A stretch of DNA of 21,827 nt from a virus: positions 1-21,827 of the IMG/VR virus record IMGVR_UViG_3300009409_000058; one strand, written 5' to 3'. This document shows positions 716-19,873 of the stretch, one piece after another. Position numbers and translations under genes: made by a program. Below the pieces are notes generated by a model that saw nothing but the letters and a program-made list of their open reading frames with translations, did not search any database and had not been told where the DNA came from. Position 1 is the first letter of the stretch. Each line of letters opens with the position of its first letter.

Positions 716-1099
716 ATGGCAAAATTTTTATCATTCAATATAGTAAACACTGGGGCGGCTACTACAGAAGGACCAGTGCTAGTTAATGTAGACTTAATTA
801 GACATGTAGCTTATGCAACGGCAACAGGAATACTTACTTTAGGTTTATCAGCAACATCAACATCAACAGTTGCATTTTTAATTAAAAACGTAACAACGGG
901 AGCAGTGGCAATTCCAGCAATAACATCTGGAACACCTGTAATTCAAGCAGTTAATAGAGCTATAACGGCTAATCCAGGTGGTGTTAAATCCGCTGTAGCT
1001 TTTGGAAGTGATCAAACAGGTGGAGTACCACCAGCAGGACAAGGACCTTTAGCAACTAACTTACAAATGTATGCAGCTACAGCAACGTTTACAGCCTAA
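716..1099 (+). CDS. Small Ala/Thr/Gly-rich probable virion-associated protein
   Basis: This is a 127-residue protein with an A-rich leader and a tandem TAATAA stop. Its first residues (MAKFLSFNIV) lead into a run of short beta-prone stretches rich in Ala, Thr, Val and Gly, with no Cys, no signal peptide and no clear membrane segment. The composition suits a small beta-sheet virion decoration or fibre-associated protein, but I do not recognise a named family. A short phrase near residues 35-43 (ATATGILTL) resembles the last residues of the 243-aa protein at 2235-2966 (TTATGILAL), which may be chance in such simple sequences. The strong leader and tandem stop suggest high expression. Function is inferred from composition and position only. 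Confidence 0.65.
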   Translation: MAKFLSFNIVNTGAATTEGPVLVNVDLIRHVAYATATGILTLGLSATSTSTVAFLIKNVTTGAVAIPAITSGTPVIQAVNRAITANPGGVKSAVAFGSDQTGGVPPAGQGPLATNLQMYAATATFTA

Positions 1100-1251
1100 T
1101 AACCAACTCAAAAGGTCTTGGTGATAGTATAGAGAAATTTACTACTAAAACTGGGATTAAAACTATTGTTGACAGAGTACCGCGGGGACTTAATATTCCC
1201 TGCGGTTGTCAGCAAAGAAAAAACACATTAAACAAAATTTTTCCTTATTAA
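1099..1251 (+). CDS. Conserved-looking 50-codon CGC-motif protein lacking an ATG start
   Basis: Frame 1 is open here and encodes a compact protein that reads as a real gene: a helix-like KGLGDSIEKFTTKTGIKTIV segment, a linker, then a CGC dipeptide motif (Cys35-Gly-Cys37) followed by basic residues (QQRK) and a closing LNKIFPY, ending at TAA 1249-1251. From memory, small proteins of this plan recur in phages of Bacteroidota, with unknown function; the paired Cys could bind metal. The oddity is the start: no ATG, GTG or TTG lies between the upstream in-frame stop (about 1060) and the conserved part. The best candidate is ATA at 1099-1101, which overlaps the previous stop as TAATA, one base from the usual TAATG coupling. 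Either AUA initiates through translational coupling, or the gene has lost its start, or a base is wrong. Confidence 0.6.
   Translation: MTNSKGLGDSIEKFTTKTGIKTIVDRVPRGLNIPCGCQQRKNTLNKIFPY
1171..1210 (+). other. Strong GC-rich stem-loop inside the CGC-motif gene
   Basis: Bases 1179-1188 (ACCGCGGGGA) pair with 1197-1206 (TCCCTGCGGT) over 10 bp with one G-U pair, around an 8-base AT loop. GACA at 1171-1174 can add a 4-bp outer stem with TGTC at 1207-1210 across a bulge. This is conspicuous in such AT-rich DNA. It lies within the coding frame and has no immediate T-run, so it is not a clear intrinsic terminator; an RNA-processing or attenuation role is possible, as is simple coincidence with the codons for VPRGLNIPCG. 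Confidence 0.45.
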
Positions 1252-1258
1252 TAGTAAT

Positions 1259-1585
1259 ATGGCTTTTAAATTGAAACCTTTTTATAATATCGATACTACT
1301 CCAATTTATAAAGTAGAATTAGAAGAGGGTGTTAATGGTAAAGCTAATAATAATGGTAGTATATTAATAGATAAAAATATTAATGACACATCCATAGTAG
1401 AAGGAATTATTGATCACGAAAAAGTTCATTTAGATCAAATAAAAAGAGGTGATCTTAATTATGATGCACATAGCGTGATATGGAAAGGTAAAAAATACCC
1501 TCGTTCTAAAATGAAAGAAGGAGCTAAGAATTTACCTTGGGAAAAAGAAGCATATAGTAAAACAAAACAAAAAACTTTAAAATAA
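1259..1585 (+). CDS. Small HExxH-motif (zincin-like) protein
   Basis: This 108-residue protein carries His-Glu-Lys-Val-His at residues 53-57 after a short hydrophobic helix start (EGIID). That is the HExxH zinc-binding and catalytic motif of metallopeptidases, with the His pair and Glu spaced correctly. Downstream, a Pro-Trp-Glu-Lys-Glu-Ala-Tyr stretch near residues 92-98 offers acidic residues that could give the third zinc ligand. The N-terminal half contains short strands that would be expected to flank the active-site helix. It is far smaller than most zincins, lacks a signal peptide and would act in the cytoplasm or inside the virion. It lies between the CGC-motif gene and the small gene before the holin, so a lysis or virion-maturation role is possible. 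Peptidase activity is an inference from the motif. Confidence 0.65.
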   Translation: MAFKLKPFYNIDTTPIYKVELEEGVNGKANNNGSILIDKNINDTSIVEGIIDHEKVHLDQIKRGDLNYDAHSVIWKGKKYPRSKMKEGAKNLPWEKEAYSKTKQKTLK

Positions 1586-1590
1586 AAAAA

Positions 1591-1842
1591 ATGGGAATAG
1601 GAAAATCAGGTTTAGGTGGAAGACCATCTATATTATCACATATGAAAACTACAGGTAAATCCTCAGGGGGATCATTAAAAAATAATCCAGATATTAAATA
1701 TGGGGGACCAGTAATTGATAAGTTTAAGTCACCAGTGAATGATGAAAAAAATATTTCTGGAAGTAAGAAAGTTAAAACTAAACATCATGATGATATGAAA
1801 GACTCTGCACAACTTATAGCACATGTTAGGAATACAACATAA
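1591..1842 (+). CDS. Small Gly/Lys/Ser-rich hypothetical protein
   Basis: This 83-residue protein starts five bases after the previous stop, behind a run of A, and its TAA (1840-1842) directly abuts the holin ATG at 1843, so the two are probably translated together. It is polar and probably disordered: Gly-rich at the start (MGIGKSGLGG), with many Lys, Ser and Asn, two adjacent His near residue 65, and no hydrophobic segment or Cys. No family is recognised. Its tight linkage with a holin hints at a lysis or late-structural role, but nothing in the sequence itself shows a function. Confidence 0.55.
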   Translation: MGIGKSGLGGRPSILSHMKTTGKSSGGSLKNNPDIKYGGPVIDKFKSPVNDEKNISGSKKVKTKHHDDMKDSAQLIAHVRNTT

Positions 1843-2223
1843 ATGTTTAAATTATTACTAGGTCTTTTAGGTAAAGGCAGTGGAAATAAAACTGTTGCTG
1901 GAAACTTGGCTTGGGATATAAGGGAAGCAATAAAAGGTAAGGAGTTAGATCCTGAAAAATTAATAGAATTACAAACAAAGATCAATGCAGTTGAAGCTCA
2001 GCATCGTACATTATTCGTTGCTGGGTGGAGACCATTTATTGGTTGGATATGTGGAGTAGCATTAGCCTATAATTTTGTCATAAGAGACTTATTTATATGG
2101 GCGACACAAACTACCGAAGCTCCACCTGCTTTACAAATGGATCATTTAATGACTGTTCTGTTGGGTATGTTAGGATTAGGTGGTTTAAGAACTTATGAAA
2201 AAATAAAAGGAAAAGATAAATAA
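1843..2223 (+). CDS. Phage holin, three-transmembrane type (Holin_3TMs-like)
   Basis: This 126-residue membrane protein has the plan I associate with the phage Holin_3TMs family: a short hydrophobic N-terminus (residues 2-10), a charged amphipathic stretch with EKLIELQTKINAVEAQHRT, then the hallmark Gly-Trp-Arg-Pro-Phe-Ile-Gly-Trp (residues 61-68) leading into a transmembrane helix to about residue 80, a loop with Pro-Pro-Ala-Leu, and a final hydrophobic segment ending in GLGGLRTYEK (111-120). Holins of this type gather in the inner membrane and open holes at a set time to start lysis. No endolysin or spanin is visible in the window. The start codon follows the preceding stop without a gap, indicating co-translation. 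Family assignment is confident; timing and partner are inferred. Confidence 0.85.
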   Translation: MFKLLLGLLGKGSGNKTVAGNLAWDIREAIKGKELDPEKLIELQTKINAVEAQHRTLFVAGWRPFIGWICGVALAYNFVIRDLFIWATQTTEAPPALQMDHLMTVLLGMLGLGGLRTYEKIKGKDK

Positions 2224-2997: not shown

Positions 2998-3270
2998 ATG
3001 AAAAAAGTAAAACCAATAGAAGCCGAACCGGCTAAAGTACAAATTACAGAAGAACAATTAATAAAAGTAAAAGAACAACAAGATTCATTGGCTGGTCTAT
3101 TAAGAGACATAGGTTATCTAGAGACTCAAAAACATGCATTAACTCATAAATATGCAGGTGTTGTTCAAGAAACTGAAGATTTTAAAGGTGAACTAGAAAA
3201 AGAGTATGGTGCGGTTAATATAAATCTACAGGATGGTACTTGCACTCCAATAGAGGAAAAAAGTGAGTAG
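2998..3270 (+). CDS. Small coiled-coil hypothetical protein
   Basis: This 90-residue, highly charged protein is predicted by eye to be almost all helix from about residue 17 to 70 (EEQLIKVKEQQDSL, LLRDIGYLETQKHAL), with heptad-like spacing of Leu and Ile, followed by a short C-terminal tail with YGAVNINLQDGTCTPIEE. The plan of long helices ending in a short beta tail recalls small proteins common in marine phages, with no defined role. The single Cys lies near the C-terminus. The stop TAG at 3268-3270 overlaps the GTG of the next gene by 8 bases, so the two are translationally coupled. A chaperone-like or assembly-accessory role is possible but unsupported. Confidence 0.7.
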   Translation: MKKVKPIEAEPAKVQITEEQLIKVKEQQDSLAGLLRDIGYLETQKHALTHKYAGVVQETEDFKGELEKEYGAVNINLQDGTCTPIEEKSE

Positions 3271-3490
3271 CGTTATAAGAAAAATTAGTATAGGTGCTGA
3301 TTATAAAAATGATGCCATGCATTACGCAGTTGGTCAGCAAGTTTATGGTGGGCACACTATATCTCATATATTACATGATGAAGAAGAGTCTTCTTATAAT
3401 ATTTATATTAAAAAAGAAGATGAGGTATTACCTTGGAAGAAATTCAATTCTAATATGGCTATATCGGTAGAATATGATTTAGAATACTAG
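3263..3490 (+). CDS. Small hypothetical protein with GTG start
   Basis: This 75-residue protein starts at GTG 3263, inside the end of the previous gene (GTGAGTAG overlap). Unusually for this window a purine-rich AGAGGA lies at 3252-3257, six bases before the start, and could act as a Shine-Dalgarno-like site or simply be codons of the upstream gene. The protein has a predicted beta-rich body (YAVGQQVYGGHTISHIL, SYNIYIKK) and ends with a Trp-Lys-Lys-Phe and a YDLEY tail. No Cys or membrane segment is present. I do not recognise a named family; the fold could be a small beta-barrel. The TAG stop at 3488-3490 shares its last G with the GTG of the next gene. Confidence 0.65.
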   Translation: MSSVIRKISIGADYKNDAMHYAVGQQVYGGHTISHILHDEEESSYNIYIKKEDEVLPWKKFNSNMAISVEYDLEY

Positions 3491-4095
3491 TGAATAGCAT
3501 TTATCAATTTATAATAAAACCAATTGGTGAAAGATATAACAATAAAATTAATATTAATAAAAAAGAATTAATTATTAATTCCAGTATTTCAAATCATAAA
3601 TTTATTAATAGAACAGCTAAAGTAGTAGGTATTCCACTAGGATTAGAAACACCTATTAAAAAAGGTGATACTGTTATTGTGCACCATAATATATTTAGAA
3701 GATATTGGGATATGAATGGAAAATCTGTAAATAGTTCTCAATTTTTTAAAGGTGAACTATATTTTGCTAACATAGGTCAAGTATATTTATATAAAAATAA
3801 AGATAATTGGAAACCACATAATGATTTTTGTTTTATAAAACCGTTATTAGAAAATAATGATTCTAAGATGGATAAATTAAAAAAGAATGCTGGTATACTA
3901 AAATATAGTAATAACTCATTAGAAGTGTTAGGAATAACTCCTGGAGACTGTGTTGGTTTTAAATCCAATAGAGAATTTGAGTTTATTATAGATAACGAAC
4001 TTCTTTATTGTATGGAATCAAATGATATTTTAATTAAATATGAACACTCAAAAAACCAAAGAGAGTATAATCCAAGCTGGGCACAAGGCAGTTGA
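3490..4095 (+). CDS. GroES-like co-chaperonin-type protein with two related halves
   Basis: GTG 3490 is the only start that keeps the N-terminal motif. Residues 8-16 (IIKPIGERY) match the way GroES proteins begin, and KKGDTVIVHHN (57-67) matches the GroES stretch with Gly-Asp before a hydrophobic strand. The second half repeats this plan: FCFIKP near 113-118, GITPGDCVGF (148-157) and IIDNELLYCMESNDILIKYE (166-185), where GroES has its DGEEYLIMREDDIL-type end. At 201 residues it is about twice the usual 95-100 of GroES. Phage co-chaperonins such as T4 gp31 cap host GroEL to fold the capsid protein, and its place just before the terminase and capsid genes fits that use. The last residues overlap the next gene by 56 bases and may be an extension. 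The similarity is by eye, so the fold is probable rather than proven. Confidence 0.5.
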   Translation: MNSIYQFIIKPIGERYNNKININKKELIINSSISNHKFINRTAKVVGIPLGLETPIKKGDTVIVHHNIFRRYWDMNGKSVNSSQFFKGELYFANIGQVYLYKNKDNWKPHNDFCFIKPLLENNDSKMDKLKKNAGILKYSNNSLEVLGITPGDCVGFKSNREFEFIIDNELLYCMESNDILIKYEHSKNQREYNPSWAQGS

Positions 4096-13335: not shown

Positions 13336-14562
13336 ATGGCAACACCTAACGGGGGATTAATCACAGAAACAGACGCACAATATTATGCAGGTACACAAGT
13401 ATTTATAGCAGCTAATAACCAAACTATATTTACAACTACGTTTAATACTGATCTTACTTTTGGAAGCAACGATCCCACTAATCCTTTATATAATACAAAT
13501 AATTTTAGATTATATACTAGCGTTAGTGGTGCTCAAGGAACATTTACTGAATACATTAATACATACACGGTTGTAAATGATATTATAACTTTTGGAGTTG
13601 TAATAGCTGATGGTACATATGTAGTAGTACAGTTATTAAGTCAGAGCGGGGGAGAGTTTGGTAACAACGATGCTTTTGGTAATGTTGTAGAAGAAAATTA
13701 TGGAAGTTATGCATATATATCGGTTGATGATTTAGTTAATAATTTTTTAGTAGCTTATGTTGGGGCTGGTAAATTAATATCTAGTGTTAAAAAAACAGAT
13801 GTTATTTTTCATACTAAAAGAGCACTACAAGAATTTAGTTATGATACACTAAGAAGTATTAATTCTCAAGAACTAACAATTCCAGCAAACCTAAGTGTAC
13901 CTCTTCCTCATGATTATGTTAATTATGTTAATGTTTCTTGGATTGATCAAGTAGGTGTAAAACATATAATATACCCTACAACTTTAACAAGTAATCCTTA
14001 CACAAAACCTATTCAAGATGCCAATGGGGTTCCTATTCAAAGTAGTACTGGTGCAACTATTACAGGTACTTCTATAACAGAAGAGAGGTGGGCTGAACAA
14101 AATACTACAATATTACAAGAAATAAGAGATGATATAACGGGAAGATTGTTATCTGATGGATTATGGGGTGTTTATGGAACAGGTCTTTTGGGTTATGGGC
14201 AACTATATGGTATGCAACCAGAGACTGCTCAAATGAATGGGTGGTTTACAATTAACGATAGAGATGGTAAAATGTCTTTTTCTAGTGATTTAAAAGATAA
14301 GTTAATAATATTAGAATATATATCGGATGGTTTATCATATGATCAAAATATGAGGGTTCCTAAATTAGCTGAAGAAGCGGTGTATGCTTATTTAATGCAT
14401 GCTATATTAGCTAGTAGAATAAATCAACCAGAATATGTTGTTCAAAGATTACGTAGAGAAAAAAGTGCTAAATTAAGAAATACAAAAATAAGGTTATCTA
14501 ATATTAAATCTAATGAGTTTATTCAGATTATGAGAGGTAAATCTAAATGGCTTAAATTTTAA
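13336..14562 (+). CDS. Second head-tail connector or tail structural protein
   Basis: This 408-residue protein follows the first connector by six bases. The N-terminal 130 residues are beta-rich and Asn/Thr-rich (FTTTFNTDLTFGSNDPTNP). From about 135 a helical core begins (VDDLVNNFLVAYVGAGKLI, SVKKTDVIFHTKRALQEFSY) that resembles the helical core of connector and tail-stabilising proteins in Bacteroidota phages, followed by a strand-rich part (LPHDYVNYVNVSWIDQVG), a second polar insert and a basic helix at the end (RLRREKSAKLRNTKIRLS). The beta N-terminus looks like an added domain on a connector core. It would join the portal-adaptor ring to the tail below. Function is inferred from position and fold impression. 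It ends with TAA four bases before the giant tail gene. Confidence 0.6.
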   Translation: MATPNGGLITETDAQYYAGTQVFIAANNQTIFTTTFNTDLTFGSNDPTNPLYNTNNFRLYTSVSGAQGTFTEYINTYTVVNDIITFGVVIADGTYVVVQLLSQSGGEFGNNDAFGNVVEENYGSYAYISVDDLVNNFLVAYVGAGKLISSVKKTDVIFHTKRALQEFSYDTLRSINSQELTIPANLSVPLPHDYVNYVNVSWIDQVGVKHIIYPTTLTSNPYTKPIQDANGVPIQSSTGATITGTSITEERWAEQNTTILQEIRDDITGRLLSDGLWGVYGTGLLGYGQLYGMQPETAQMNGWFTINDRDGKMSFSSDLKDKLIILEYISDGLSYDQNMRVPKLAEEAVYAYLMHAILASRINQPEYVVQRLRREKSAKLRNTKIRLSNIKSNEFIQIMRGKSKWLKF

Positions 14563-14566
14563 ATAA

Positions 14567-17500
14567 ATGGCAGAAGTTAAAAATTCTTTTATTAAGTCCA
14601 AAATGAATAAAGACCTGGATGCCAGGTTGTTGCCAAATGGTGAATATCGTGAAGGAATTAATATACAAGTAAGTAGATCCGAGGGGGCCGACGTTGGAGC
14701 GTTAGAGAATGTTTTAGGTAATAAATTAATTTTAGATTTAGTTACTAAAACTGGTATAAGTGGACTTGAGTGTATAGGTATGTATACTGATGATACTAAT
14801 AATAATATATATTTATTTTTAACAGATTATACAGCAACTAATATTGCTACAATAACAGGGAATAATCAAAGACAATTTAACGCTGCCTCTTTAAATTATT
14901 ATGAAGGAGCAAATAATTTTATATACCTATATAATACATCTACCAACACAGCAACAATGCTTGTTAGAGGAGCATTTTTGAATTTCTCTACAACAAACTC
15001 TATATTATCTGTAAATATATTAGAAGATTTATTGTTCTGGACAGATAACAGAAATCAACCAAGACGAATAAACGTACAGTTTGCTAATACTGATGCTGCT
15101 ATAACTAATCCAACATATTATACAACTGAAGATCAGATATCTGTAGCTTCATATAATCCTTATCCTGCTATAGATTTATATTATTTAAATTCAGACGTAT
15201 ATAATACTAACGGTGGTCAAGGAACTGTATTAACCACTCAATTGGGTATAGGAACAGATATAATTTTAGACCCAGCTAGTTTAATTGGTATAAATCCAGA
15301 ATATTTAATTGGTGCTGTTGTTACTGGTACAAATATTCCTACAGGTGCTACAATACATATTTATGCTGGTACTACTATAACACTAGACACATCTACAGCG
15401 GTGGCTGTAACAGCGGGAACTGTATTAACATTTAATGCTAATCAAAGCACAACTACATATGTAACTAGTATGTTGGATGTAAGTAGTCCTTTTCTTCCTA
15501 ATGGTACAGATATAAATCCAGATTACAATGCAAATTATTCGGGTGATCCGGATTATTTAGAAGATAAGTTTGTTAGGTTTAGTTATAGATTTAAATTTGA
15601 AGATGGTGAAGTTTCTATAATGGCTCCATTTACTCAAGCAACTTTTATACCTAAACAAGATGGTTATTTTTTAGGTGCTGATACAACTGGAACTCCTACA
15701 CCTGTTGGTAATACAACTGATGAAGATTCTACATATAGAACTACTATTGTTGAATTTATGGAAAATAAAGTAAATCAAATATTACTTCAAATACCATTAC
15801 CTTCACAAGGTAAATCATTAAATAATGATTTCAAAGTATCAGAAATAGAAATATTATATAAAGAATCTGATGGTTTAGCTGTGAAAATAGTAGATACTAT
15901 TTCCTCAGATGGTAATCAAGGTTTTGGAATGATGCCAGATCCTTCAAATCCAGTGGATTTTATAGCTAGAACAACAGAATCTGTTACATATAGTTATCAA
16001 GGTATAAAGCCTTATAAAACATTACCTGAGCAAGATTTAATTAGGGTATATGATAAAGTTCCTGTTAGAGCTTTAAGTCAAGAAATAATAAGTAACAGAG
16101 TTGTTTATGGTAATTTTCAAAATAAACATACACCACCTAATTCTTTAGAATTTAACGTAGGTATATTTGATAAATATAATTTTAATATAGGGCAAGCTCA
16201 GCCAGTTGCGGAGTGGTATACAAGTATAGTAGAATATCCAATGCACACTGTTAAACAAAACAGAAACTATCAAGTTGGGATAGTGTTGTCGGATAAATTT
16301 GGTAGATCATCTACAACTATATTATCATCTAAACAATCACAAGGGGTTTTTACTGATCCTATAAGTGGAGATCCTACTACTTTTCAAGGTGGTACCATAT
16401 ATCATCCTTATGAAGCCAACCCTGGGCTTAGTGGTAATAAAGTTAATTCTTGGCCTGGTGATTCTATAAAAATATTATTTAATCAAGCAATTGGTTCTAA
16501 TGGACCAATAGCTGGAGTTGAACCTAATTTAGAAAATTTTTGGCCCGGTATTTATAACGGAGATATAACTAGTGAATATTATAATCCTTTAGGTTGGTAT
16601 TCATATAAAGTTGTTGTTAAACAACAAGAACAAGAGTATTATAATGTATATCTTCCTGGTATATTAAATGGATATCCCAATGCGCCAGCTGCTCCACCAG
16701 ACCCAGCAAACACCATAAATTTTATTACTTTATTTGGAGATAATATAGATAAGGTGCCCGCAGATATGACAGGTGTTGGCCCTGATCAAAAACAATACAG
16801 AAGTGGTGTACAACTATATGGTAGGGTAACACCGGAATCTGTAAGTGTACCTTCTCCAACTAATAATACTCAATTCTACCCAGGAATATTAGCCAATAAT
16901 ACAATAGCTATAGCTAATCAAGACTCTATATTTGGTACGGTTGTTGATTATTTAGATGTTTATCAAACTGAGTCAAACCCTCCAGTAGGTAGAGTGTCCC
17001 AATCAGACGTAAATAATCCCATAGGAAGTGATCCTCAACCAGTAGCTACCACAACAGCTTATAATTTTTTATTAGGTGTTTATGAAACCGCACCGGTAGA
17101 GTCAGTTATAGATATATATTGGGAAACTTCTACTTCTGGTTTAATATCAGAATTAAATGAAGCTATTAATGCTGAAAGCGGTGGTATAGTTGGTTTTGAT
17201 ACCACTGATGGTACTGGAAAATGGGTTTATTTTCAAGATGAAAATATTATACCGGGTCAATCAGTAAATACAAGAGGTAATACATATGACTCGCTAGCAC
17301 CTTTTTATCCTATCTATGGGGGAGGAAGTGCGGTTGTAAATTCCATAATTAATTTAACATCAGTTATTGATGGTGCAGGTAGAAACAGGACAACTGAGTT
17401 TCAATTAAATAGAGATTCCGGTAATGGAGCTGAGGGGCAAGATACGTATAATATTACTATAACAACTGATAGTTTTTTTTATTATGGACAAAATGCTAAT

Positions 17501-19873
17501 ATAGATGAAACATATACGTTTACTTTTGAAATAACTGATTTAGATGAAGATAATCTACAAACAACTTTACTTTCTTTTGGAAGTTTACAAAATGTAGATC
17601 CTAGATTTACTAACTGTTTAACCGCTTATAATAATCCAACTGGACAAGAATTAATATATTCTTATGATGCGGTTAATGGCTCTGCAGACCCATCAAGAAA
17701 TACTGAAGATTTAACGTTTGCAATTGTTGAGCAAATTCCAGCCCTACCTCTTTTAACAATTGATCAACAAGGACAATTAAAAGATCCGGCAACTGTACTT
17801 AACGGGGCTATGACTGTAGAGGTATCAGTTACTGATGCGGCAGGTGCAGTGGCTACATGTACCACCGCATTAAATGGAAGTGTAGGTTATAGAACCTTAC
17901 CACTAAATGATGATTTTTATACATGTGGAAATAAGAGCATAGGTGGTGGGCCTTTAATAATAAATAAAGCCTCTGAATCATCTGGTTTTTATTGGACAAG
18001 TGATTATACTACTAATATAAATGGAGATGTTATCCCCGGTACTGGTGGTCCCGCGCCCGTAATAAATAGAGAGCCCGTATCTGGTTTAAGTTTACCAAAC
18101 TCATTAACTTATTTAGAGGGTACCACTGGTACTGATACTTTAAGTGTCGTATCAAGTTGTTCTACTGGGTCTACTTGGTCTTGGGTTAATACAAATAGAA
18201 CAGCAACAGCTAGTGTTACTAATGATTTTGAGTCAACTAATAGTAGATTAGCAGTTCTTGGGTCTAATGCATATGATGGTAAGTTAACTTTTAATAATCC
18301 CATTGGTATAACAACTGGTACTGCTTATATTATAGTAGATTTTGAAGTATCACTATTAAATGGTGTAACACTTTCTGATGCCCCTGGTTTAATTTGGCCA
18401 ACTTATTTACAATATAGAGTAGCAGGTACATCTACTTGGGAAAATGTTACTGATATTGAAGGCACACCTGTTGTGTTTGGTCAAACACAAATTAATGATT
18501 GGACTATATCAAAAGATGGTAATGGACCTTTTAATGATACAGGGGTTATTAACGATAGAACTAAATCTGAATCCACTGATGATGGTACTTATGATAAATT
18601 TAATGCTGCTGAATCATATACATATGGAAGAGGAACAGGTGTAGGTGCAAGTGCGCCAACATTAAAAGCAGTGTGTAGACAGTTGTTTGCTGTTGGTATG
18701 TGTCAGGCTTATAGAAATCAAACTTCGTTTGCGCCAGTAGCTTCTGCCCCAGACAAAATAGGGGACTACAGATTAACAGTAAGGTATCCAAGTGGAAGAA
18801 ACCAAGTATATAGCACGGCCGCTAGTGGGTGGGCTGATGGTGGTATAAACCCAGCTATATCTATAGGTTATTGTCCAACACCTCCTTATGATAATTATAC
18901 TAATGCACAACAAACCCAACAAGTAAAACTTCAGTTTGGTGATTTTTATAACCCTTTTCAATTAGGTTATAAACAAAATGAGTTATCATATTCTTATAGA
19001 GTAAGCACTAATGGGTCTGTAGATATATCAAACGCTGAAGCATTATCTACACCAGGAACAAACGTAGTATATGCTAGAGAGTGGGCATTTAAATATGTCT
19101 CAAGATTTTATTTAGATTCTAAATTAACTCAACCATGGGAACCTGGTACTGTTGGTAATAGTGGTTATAATGGTCAAACAGCTGATCTTTATTACTCATT
19201 TATATCTAATGAGAAAAATAAAGCTAATCCTGAAGATGGAAATGATTATTCTAATGTAGAAAAAGATAGATTTACAAAGTATTCAGAAACAAGATCTAGA
19301 ACTTCAAGTTCAAATGATATATTGTGGGCAGATGTGGATAGAAAATGGGTGGCGGAATTTACAAAGTTTGGTATAAAAGTTAAAAGTACAGCTCTACCCT
19401 TACAAAGATTAAGTGAAGGTGGGGGAGATCCTATTGTTTTACCAACTGGAGCGATTCCTGTTATAGCAAACTATAGTGATGGAGGACAAACAGTCTATAT
19501 GCGGGCTGGTAATGTAAACGTTGCTCCCGCAAATTACAATCTACCAGAACTTAAAATTATATTTGAAAGTAGTGAATACACATCTAATATTGCTACTGAT
19601 GCACAAAACTATGCTTCAATGATAATTGCAGAGGGCAGTTTAGACCCTAGTGGAGAAAATCCTATTGCTCAAAATATAACACAAAATTGGTGGTTGGGCC
19701 TTCAGGATGATTATCAACCAGTAACAGAGCTAACCTTTCATGCTGGTGGTAATAGTTCTTTAACATATTCACTAAACGGTGACGTTGCAACTATTACAAT
19801 AACTAATTGTAGATTAAGTAATGAGGTAGGTATAGCGCCTCAAGATTACTATGTAAACAATCCTAATGCTTAG
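14567..19873 (+). CDS. Giant tail structural protein (1768 aa)
   Basis: The N-terminal signature KSKMNKDLDARLLPNGEY (residues 11-28) and the following NIQVSRSEGADVGALENVLG match, in my memory, large tail-stabilising or tail-tube-end (muzzle-like) proteins of marine and Bacteroidota podoviruses. The chain is almost all beta, Asn/Thr/Tyr-rich, without a signal peptide or transmembrane segment. Residues about 985-1105 look like an Ig- or cadherin-like domain (FTFEITDLDEDNLQ; PLLTIDQQGQLKDPATV; AMTVEVSVTDAAGAV), a common insert in tail proteins that binds cell surfaces. Further strand-rich modules fill 1110-1600. The C-terminal 150 residues are also beta-rich and end with TAG TAA. It probably forms the distal tail with the 486-aa protein downstream. 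Domain limits are by eye, and a split or fused form relative to relatives is possible. Confidence 0.75.
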   Translation: MAEVKNSFIKSKMNKDLDARLLPNGEYREGINIQVSRSEGADVGALENVLGNKLILDLVTKTGISGLECIGMYTDDTNNNIYLFLTDYTATNIATITGNNQRQFNAASLNYYEGANNFIYLYNTSTNTATMLVRGAFLNFSTTNSILSVNILEDLLFWTDNRNQPRRINVQFANTDAAITNPTYYTTEDQISVASYNPYPAIDLYYLNSDVYNTNGGQGTVLTTQLGIGTDIILDPASLIGINPEYLIGAVVTGTNIPTGATIHIYAGTTITLDTSTAVAVTAGTVLTFNANQSTTTYVTSMLDVSSPFLPNGTDINPDYNANYSGDPDYLEDKFVRFSYRFKFEDGEVSIMAPFTQATFIPKQDGYFLGADTTGTPTPVGNTTDEDSTYRTTIVEFMENKVNQILLQIPLPSQGKSLNNDFKVSEIEILYKESDGLAVKIVDTISSDGNQGFGMMPDPSNPVDFIARTTESVTYSYQGIKPYKTLPEQDLIRVYDKVPVRALSQEIISNRVVYGNFQNKHTPPNSLEFNVGIFDKYNFNIGQAQPVAEWYTSIVEYPMHTVKQNRNYQVGIVLSDKFGRSSTTILSSKQSQGVFTDPISGDPTTFQGGTIYHPYEANPGLSGNKVNSWPGDSIKILFNQAIGSNGPIAGVEPNLENFWPGIYNGDITSEYYNPLGWYSYKVVVKQQEQEYYNVYLPGILNGYPNAPAAPPDPANTINFITLFGDNIDKVPADMTGVGPDQKQYRSGVQLYGRVTPESVSVPSPTNNTQFYPGILANNTIAIANQDSIFGTVVDYLDVYQTESNPPVGRVSQSDVNNPIGSDPQPVATTTAYNFLLGVYETAPVESVIDIYWETSTSGLISELNEAINAESGGIVGFDTTDGTGKWVYFQDENIIPGQSVNTRGNTYDSLAPFYPIYGGGSAVVNSIINLTSVIDGAGRNRTTEFQLNRDSGNGAEGQDTYNITITTDSFFYYGQNANIDETYTFTFEITDLDEDNLQTTLLSFGSLQNVDPRFTNCLTAYNNPTGQELIYSYDAVNGSADPSRNTEDLTFAIVEQIPALPLLTIDQQGQLKDPATVLNGAMTVEVSVTDAAGAVATCTTALNGSVGYRTLPLNDDFYTCGNKSIGGGPLIINKASESSGFYWTSDYTTNINGDVIPGTGGPAPVINREPVSGLSLPNSLTYLEGTTGTDTLSVVSSCSTGSTWSWVNTNRTATASVTNDFESTNSRLAVLGSNAYDGKLTFNNPIGITTGTAYIIVDFEVSLLNGVTLSDAPGLIWPTYLQYRVAGTSTWENVTDIEGTPVVFGQTQINDWTISKDGNGPFNDTGVINDRTKSESTDDGTYDKFNAAESYTYGRGTGVGASAPTLKAVCRQLFAVGMCQAYRNQTSFAPVASAPDKIGDYRLTVRYPSGRNQVYSTAASGWADGGINPAISIGYCPTPPYDNYTNAQQTQQVKLQFGDFYNPFQLGYKQNELSYSYRVSTNGSVDISNAEALSTPGTNVVYAREWAFKYVSRFYLDSKLTQPWEPGTVGNSGYNGQTADLYYSFISNEKNKANPEDGNDYSNVEKDRFTKYSETRSRTSSSNDILWADVDRKWVAEFTKFGIKVKSTALPLQRLSEGGGDPIVLPTGAIPVIANYSDGGQTVYMRAGNVNVAPANYNLPELKIIFESSEYTSNIATDAQNYASMIIAEGSLDPSGENPIAQNITQNWWLGLQDDYQPVTELTFHAGGNSSLTYSLNGDVATITITNCRLSNEVGIAPQDYYVNNPNA

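Follow-up and report, generated by a model that had tools for sequence, protein, structure and literature searches.

A very small zincin-like protein, probably a zinc metallopeptidase, encoded near the holin gene of phages akin to those of flavobacteria

The 108-residue protein encoded at positions 1259 to 1585 of a 21,827-base virus record carries an HExxH motif and a downstream WExxA motif, both invariant in its family, and we give an even chance to the proposal that it is a stripped-down zincin-type zinc metallopeptidase acting in virion assembly or release. The record, analyzed over its full length and called the window below, is classed as linear and is perhaps a fragment; it contains genes for a terminase, a portal, virion structural proteins, a GroES-like protein, and a holin. 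The open reading frame (ORF), its strand and length, and the HEKVH motif at residues 53 to 57 are as a sequence-only reading of the same DNA had given them. The features of the gene are as follows.

1259..1585, + strand: minimal zincin-like metallopeptidase (predicted), 108 aa, ATG start; studied through 78 distinct family sequences and AF2 models
1415..1429, + strand: HEKVH, residues 53 to 57, two predicted zinc ligands and the predicted catalytic Glu54; conserved in 78/78 sequences, within helix 44 to 63
1538..1552, + strand: W94-E95-x-x-A98, where E95, on the second helix, is predicted as the third ligand; W94, E95, and A98 in 78/78 sequences
1259..1273, + strand: N-terminal tag-like MAFKL, at the low-confidence start of the models; F3 in 77/78 sequences

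By sequence, the source phage is akin to phages of flavobacteria. Its large terminase shares 62.6% identity with the one from MW202828, an unclassified podovirus (Manatee Spring), and about 45% with those of Flavobacterium elemo phages, and the 87 records matching this terminase comprised 68 from Flavobacterium, 15 from Cellulophaga, 2 from Tenacibaculum, 1 from Maribacter, and MW202828. Hosts would be expected among the Flavobacteriia, judging from these relatives. A tblastn search of the same phage collection with the peptidase matched six records, none of which belonged to that terminase-matching group.

RESULTS

The predicted zinc-binding motifs are invariant in the family

A scan of viral-contig proteins gave 264 stretches encoding relatives of the 108-residue protein, of which the best 80 were retained, with 49 distinct proteins among them. 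We aligned 81 rows (the window, the retained loci, the loci anchored on the GroES-like gene described below, and six longer contigs), adding rows only if they were longer than 95 aa and leaving out members from genome bins. Over residues 3 to 99, 78 of the 81 rows were distinct, and the other three differed from existing rows only at the start or in the tail. H53, E54, H57, W94, E95, and A98 were identical in all 78 distinct sequences, as were G27, G33, I35, G64, L66, Y68, R82, G88, and L92. Position 60 was Q in 67 sequences and D in 11, W75 was a tryptophan in 58/78, and no histidine downstream of H57 was present in more than 11/78. Values of dN/dS were 0.04 to 0.25 in seven of eight chosen pairs (dS was not computable for the eighth).

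The same residues held at greater distances. An 18-row superfamily alignment, which included proteins of Ochrobactrum, Xanthomonas, and Methylophilales phages and the bacterial-genome loci L096 to L098, kept H53, E54, H57, Q60, P93, W94, E95, and A98 invariant; a 43-row alignment that reached down to 23% identity and took in the Q60D branch kept H53, E54, H57, W94, E95, and A98. When the protein's own residues were shuffled, HExxH arose in 409 of 100,000 cases, and the conservation of the motif is stronger evidence than this rarity.

The sequence-only reading had sought a third zinc ligand in the stretch PWEKEAY, among Glu93 to Glu95. This stretch corresponds to residues 93 to 99, so that its glutamates are E95 and E97; of the proposed positions only E95, which is invariant and sits on the predicted second helix, qualifies as a candidate, positions 93 and 94 being proline and tryptophan. 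Residue 97 was E in 57 of the 78 sequences, K in 9, D in 7, T in 2, R in 2, and P in 1, and because 21/78 thus carry K, D, T, R, or P, we excluded E97 as the ligand. The invariance of E95 and the variability of E97 therefore make E95, within the WExxA motif, the likely third ligand. E95 lies in the first turn of the predicted second helix, which starts at residue 93, and E95, A98, and Y/H/N99 fit what we take to be the E-x-x-A-x pattern of M48-type gluzincins.

Predicted fold

Two AF2 models were computed from different input alignments (pLDDT 81.4 and 82.5; pTM 0.70 and 0.71). They agree on the middle strands, a helix at residues 44 to 63, a hairpin at 72 to 81, and a helix from 93, and disagree at residues 8 to 14 and at the C-terminal end. 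The ten-residue blocks of helix 44 to 63 have pLDDT values of 85 to 91, and residues 1 to 10 average 66 and 56 in the two models. H53 and H57 share this one predicted helix and the conserved glutamate is on the next, which is part of what the sequence-only reading had asked a structure prediction to reveal; its minimal zincin, with a putative three-ligand site formed by H53, H57, and E95, has good backing from both conservation and the predicted fold. The core would combine a small beta sheet and a beta hairpin with two helices, one bearing HExxH and the other providing E95 as third ligand through its WExxA motif.

Foldseek searches of the PDB gave best E values of 0.24 and 0.47 for the two models, and the lists also contained unrelated folds (Rad50, RecA, GAPDH). 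Realignment of the Foldseek candidates with VIA-align gave best Z scores of 6.1 and 5.9, values below the 8 under which, as the tool warns, a match may reflect merely a common arrangement. Zincin-fold proteins nevertheless filled 20/20 and 19/20 of the first 20 VIA-align rows for the two models; they included IrrE/PprI, Spartan, selecase, abylysin, jannalysin, ArdC, Wss1, the VgrG2b effector domain, and BepA, among others, and CapP for the first model only (ArdC, CapP, and the VgrG2b domain being, as we assume, zincin-fold proteins). In the BFVD viral library, ten matches reached E ≤1e-3, and three of these bear the name SprT-like. We conclude that the 108-residue protein very probably has a genuine zincin fold, and an active peptidase seems a good bet.

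Relation to known zincins

Pfam (searched up to E 10), NCBIfam, and PADLOC had no model matching the window protein, and the Pfam families without a match included M78 (PF06114), PF10263, and M15 (PF08291). It did match PHROGs 10499 and 16532 (E 3.8e-9 and 2.8e-8), both annotated as function unknown. Sequence searches of the PDB gave nothing convincing for the window protein (best E 0.21) or the family profile (no match); the best match with the relative P0002 had E 9.3, and the profile of the Melnitz relative placed TFIID subunit 6 (E 0.27) ahead of Spartan (E 0.96).

The closest known proteins are uncharacterized HExxH proteins of other phages: QZI95022.1 of the Methylophilales phage Melnitz-3, QIG66055.1 of Ochrobactrum phage vB_OspM_OC, and ORF071 of Xanthomonas phage XacN1. 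They share HExxHxxQ followed by PWExxA, with a WxG-like stretch between the two in most rows, but have 140 to 168 aa against 108 for the window protein. Their HExxH motifs start at residues 70, 83, and 102, and that of the window protein, at residue 53, is 17 to 49 residues closer to the N terminus; the best reading of these sequences is a minimal zincin that would lack the N-terminal segment of its longer relatives. The profile of the Melnitz family aligned with that of the window family over 74 columns (probability 98, E 1.6e-13, for a single comparison). Two relatives approached named families from below their cut-offs, the Melnitz protein scoring 22.4 bits against SprT-like PF10263 (cut-off 25.6) and P0002 scoring 12.7 bits against M78 PF06114 (cut-off 22).

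In structure, the top matches were IrrE/PprI proteins of family M78 (PDB 3dte, 3dti, and 8sln; Z 5.3 to 6.1 over 82 to 86 residues, rmsd 3.6 to 4.3), whose chains are much longer (240 to 247 aa) and whose Pfam model does not match the window protein. The minigluzincins selecase, abylysin, and jannalysin (PDB 4qhf, 4jiu, and 4jix) are zincin-fold chains of similar size, about 105 aa; their scores are modest (4qhf, Z 4.9 to 5.2, and 4jiu, Z 4.9 to 5.0, over 67 to 72 residues with rmsd 2.7 to 3.7), and they are archaeal entries with no sequence match to the window protein. Spartan (PDB 6mdw) and Wss1 (5xbn) gave Z scores of 5.1 to 5.4 and 4.4 to 4.7. In SprT/Spartan and Wss1 the third ligand is a histidine, whereas the window family has no conserved histidine after H57 (in at most 11/78 sequences) and an invariant E95 instead.

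Polyvalent proteins offer a further parallel. According to the excerpts of PMC5512222 that bear on them, zincin-like MPTases are the commonest domain type in these proteins; they resemble the window protein in their phage origin and in carrying HExxH on one helix and a ligand glutamate on the next. They differ, in the same excerpts, in being domains inside large multidomain proteins, where the window protein is free-standing, and in having an N-terminal helix, of which neither window model shows one of 4 or more residues. Partial texts also describe SprT-like and other zincins in jumbo phages, one with a suggested role in maturation (PMC5512222, PMC7824862), and a 199-aa zinc-dependent metallopeptidase in phage Molly (PMC8776804, in excerpt). 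Free-standing and embedded phage zincins are thus already known, and the window protein is a very small variant with a signature of its own.

The only clear fusions among the family members listed were L010 and L074 (196 aa each) and L094 (671 aa). L010 (1366-1956) and L074 (5001-5591) have the same C-terminal extra segment of about 90 aa on otherwise different members, and L094 (1321-3336), whose gene is followed by a holin gene, joins the peptidase domain to some 550 additional residues. Neither Pfam nor PHROG gave a match to the whole L094 protein at E 0.1, and in the loci at hand neither the L010/L074 segment nor the L094 tail occurred as a separate gene. A relative on a Roseivirga contig (L096, 5827-6309) starts with an apparent secretion signal, which suggests a cellular, exported branch of the family. 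Among 198 sampled genomes of the phylum of G013, the one strong match was G013 itself, which is also the source of L096; six further matches were weak (20 to 22 bits). Two contigs titled as Woesearchaeota and Euryarchaeota MAGs (L086 and L089) carry close relatives of the phage gene and are probably misbinned phage contigs.

Gene neighborhood

We then looked at the genes around the peptidase, using a synteny set of 81 sources (80 loci and the window). The neighboring features in the window are as follows.

1099..1251, + strand: possible small CGCxxR...FPY protein directly upstream of the peptidase gene, ATA start
1591..1842, + strand: 83-aa variable protein between peptidase and holin, from a cluster of three members, no Pfam match
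1843..2223, + strand: holin (GTA_holin_3TM, Pfam E 2.5e-10; PHROG 3427, E 2.4e-26)
2998..3270, + strand: conserved 90-aa cassette protein, in 79/81 synteny sources
3263..3490, + strand: conserved 75-aa cassette protein, in 79/81 synteny sources
3490..4095, + strand: GroES-like protein, the anchor for presence and absence (PHROG 13932, E 6.8e-24; matches in 77 phage records)
4312..6543, + strand: terminase large subunit, end of the conserved cassette (PHROG 6681, E 2.6e-166)

The cassette is conserved: the peptidase cluster and the GroES-like, 75-aa, and 90-aa genes were each found in 79/81 sources and the terminase in 78/81 (in L072 and L073, the mechanical call put no ORF in the peptidase family). 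In MW202828, Panino, an Elemovirus, and phi38:1, the corresponding position encodes a protein that aligns with the 75-aa protein. Upstream, a CGCxxR homologue of at least 50 aa ends between -11 and +2 nt from the peptidase start in 34/56 sources; homologues elsewhere have an ATG start and abut the peptidase gene, and in the window the ATA at 1099 was the only candidate among seven start codons checked. Downstream, the next ORF overlaps the peptidase gene by 4 nt in 22/79 sources.

The holin confirms the earlier description of the gene as lying beside the lysis genes. Counted over + strand ORFs of at least 60 aa, a holin-family gene is the next ORF in 43 of the 79 sources, the second in 23, the third in 3, the fourth in 7, and the fifth in 2; it thus falls within five ORFs in 78/79 and is absent in 1. 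This family joins two clusters, that of the window and a commoner one, which scores 21.6 bits in Pfam (cut-off 24.8) and of which two scanned members matched the PHROG holin at E 6.1e-20 and 7.4e-20.

These arrangements, in which both holin clusters match the PHROG holin, argue for a role in lysis or release, which we regard as possible though doubtful. The protein would leave through the adjacent holin and cut a periplasmic or peptidoglycan-linked target, either to assist the M15 endolysin or to make the outer membrane come away. The order in L094, from a Flavobacteriaceae bin, points the same way (amidase with Pfam E 7.2e-13, 151-aa ORF, DUF6321, peptidase fusion, holin), as does an M15 protein encoded five ORFs upstream of the peptidase in G001. 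Against this, inspection by eye of the 108 residues shows no signal peptide or transmembrane segment, and five of the six longer contigs encode an M15 peptidase as a separate gene, which makes it improbable that the window protein is the only endolysin; we rejected it as an endolysin replacement on the same ground. The M15 gene is absent from the sixth, G006, a 38-kb record. The M15 proteins of G004 and G005, whose first matches were weak (E 4e-6 and 1e-5), match Pfam M15 at 2.2e-21 and 1.5e-21, and an M15 neighbor in L029 matches PF08291 at E 6e-11.

Presence and absence among relatives

To avoid selecting loci by the peptidase itself, we used the GroES-like gene as the anchor. The peptidase was found in 61/84 GroES-anchored loci and in 39/43 of those with at least 5 kb of upstream sequence, and it lay 0.86 to 2.2 kb upstream of the GroES-like gene in all 61 carrying loci. 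The four loci without it despite at least 5 kb upstream all came from the phi38:1 (Callevirus) query. The loci anchored on the window's own GroES-like gene account for all of these 39 (39/39 with enough sequence), a count biased to near relatives because these loci were the best 80 of 358 and some shared contigs with those of the peptidase scan.

In whole-genome profile searches up to E 10, no relative was found in Panino, one Elemovirus, phi38:1, or Calle, or in two further viral records (G216 and G217). Elemovirus, Callevirus, and Maribacter phage Panino have head and packaging genes in common with the window and no peptidase; related heads can therefore be built without it. The four named relatives that do without it also count against a role in lysis. 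MW202828, the nearest annotated genome, gave one weak match (E 1.3e-5, 20.9 bits) inside a giant protein, which we considered as a carrier of the domain and for which we do not claim homology: it has two HExxH motifs and no W[ED]xxA. The second of these, which may mark a distant zincin, scores 13.5 bits on the A5 profile and is missed by the family profile.

Five of the longer contigs encode giant proteins of 2,467 to 3,019 aa with one HExxH each (oriented contigs G001 39252, G002 40383, G003 31048, G004 22626, and G005 24609). Shuffling each of the five produced HExxH in 0 to 4 of 1,000 cases, which makes chance an unlikely origin, and a Pfam scan of two of the giants found nothing above the cut-off. 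These motifs possibly mark polyvalent-type zincin domains. Since they occur in five contigs, the 108-residue protein is not the only candidate protease there.

A possible N-terminal tag shared with neighboring proteins

Several proteins encoded in the variable stretch before the holin start like the peptidase (for example, MAYKQ, MPFKM, and MAFKI). Starts of the form M-[AGP]-[FY]-[KT]-x were seen in the oriented contigs G001 (17995-19630), G002 (16921-19364), and G006 (13823-16714), on unrelated, small, often lysine-rich proteins of that region. We clustered the ORFs, joining them only by alignments of at least 35 residues that reached past residue 45, and compared clusters starting at most 5 kb upstream of the GroES-like gene with those elsewhere, the peptidase itself being excluded (a partly independent set). 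The pattern M[AGPS][FY][KTE][QLMK] began 11/52 clusters near the GroES-like gene and 0/163 elsewhere (Fisher p 7e-8), a p value that is optimistic because the pattern was chosen after the sequences had been seen and because the 163 include mechanical, perhaps non-gene, ORFs. A looser pattern gave 12/52 versus 4/163 and also caught terminase and holin starts.

The M-A-F/Y-K tag is perhaps a packaging signal. In phage T4, according to excerpts of PMC7697877, an N-terminal targeting sequence of roughly 10 residues directs internal proteins to the head and is removed by the maturation protease; we take the parallel as a lead only. In a bolder and improbable version, M-[AGPS]-[FY]-[KTE]-x would be a capsid-targeting tag that gathers varied small proteins into the virion, with the peptidase as a fixed member that would trim tags or cargo before or after ejection. 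If true, the system would be a counterpart of the T4 internal proteins in which a zinc protease replaces the T4 maturation protease.

A tagged protein could also be a virion-carried effector, ejected into the host to cleave a defense or regulatory protein, a reading that we hold to be improbable. IrrE/ImmA-like peptidases cleave repressors, and IrrE/PprI proteins are the top structural matches; the tag common to unrelated neighbors in turn recalls the capsid targeting sequence of T4, as excerpts of PMC7697877 describe it. An accessory gene should come and go, however, and this one was kept in 39/39 window-anchored loci (from the best 80 of 358); nor does the window protein have a PADLOC or M78 match.

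DISCUSSION

Taken by role, virion assembly or carriage in the virion is our leading, still tentative, choice, and lysis or release is its close rival at a somewhat lower probability; ejection as an effector is improbable, and to the same small extent we allow for a role that is of another kind or non-catalytic. In the preferred reading, the peptidase would be expressed late, as its position implies, and made in the cytoplasm, where H53, H57, and E95 would hold the zinc at the predicted site and E54 would activate a water for catalysis. It would cut a phage protein during virion assembly; alternatively, it may travel in the virion by means of its N-terminal tag. Either way, its target, from the phage or the envelope, would be cleaved late. 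The sequence-only reading had entertained virion maturation, host-wall cleavage, and defense evasion, all of which are candidate functions; strict conservation within one holin-adjoining cassette speaks more for virion maturation or lysis than for an optional gene of defense evasion. Two observations count against assembly, namely the relatives without the peptidase and the giant proteins' own HExxH, and the holin adjacency and the amidase-to-holin order of L094 fit lysis equally well.

A structural role, in which the protein binds zinc without catalysis and the zincin fold serves only as a scaffold, would suit the very small size, and invariant residues away from the site (G27, G33, I35, Y68, R82, and G88) suggest a constrained surface; we think this quite unlikely, as E54, a catalytic residue that is not a ligand, is invariant in 78/78 sequences. 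That HExxH arose by chance in an unrelated small protein, as the missing Pfam, NCBIfam, and PADLOC matches might suggest, is strongly disfavored and scarcely credible given that HExxH and WExxA are both invariant, that the predicted fold matches zinc peptidases, and that a profile comparison ties the family to one from phages whose SprT-like match is sub-threshold.

If active, the protein would count as a phage zincin of very small size, marked by the signature HExxH...WExxA and drawn from a family without a Pfam or NCBIfam match and known to PHROG only under unknown function. Its gene has one fixed position in a phage branch represented here almost only by metagenome contigs, and its shared N-terminal tag is a testable candidate packaging signal. 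For the biology of these phages, the peptidase would point to a step in assembly or release for which four named relatives do not use it.
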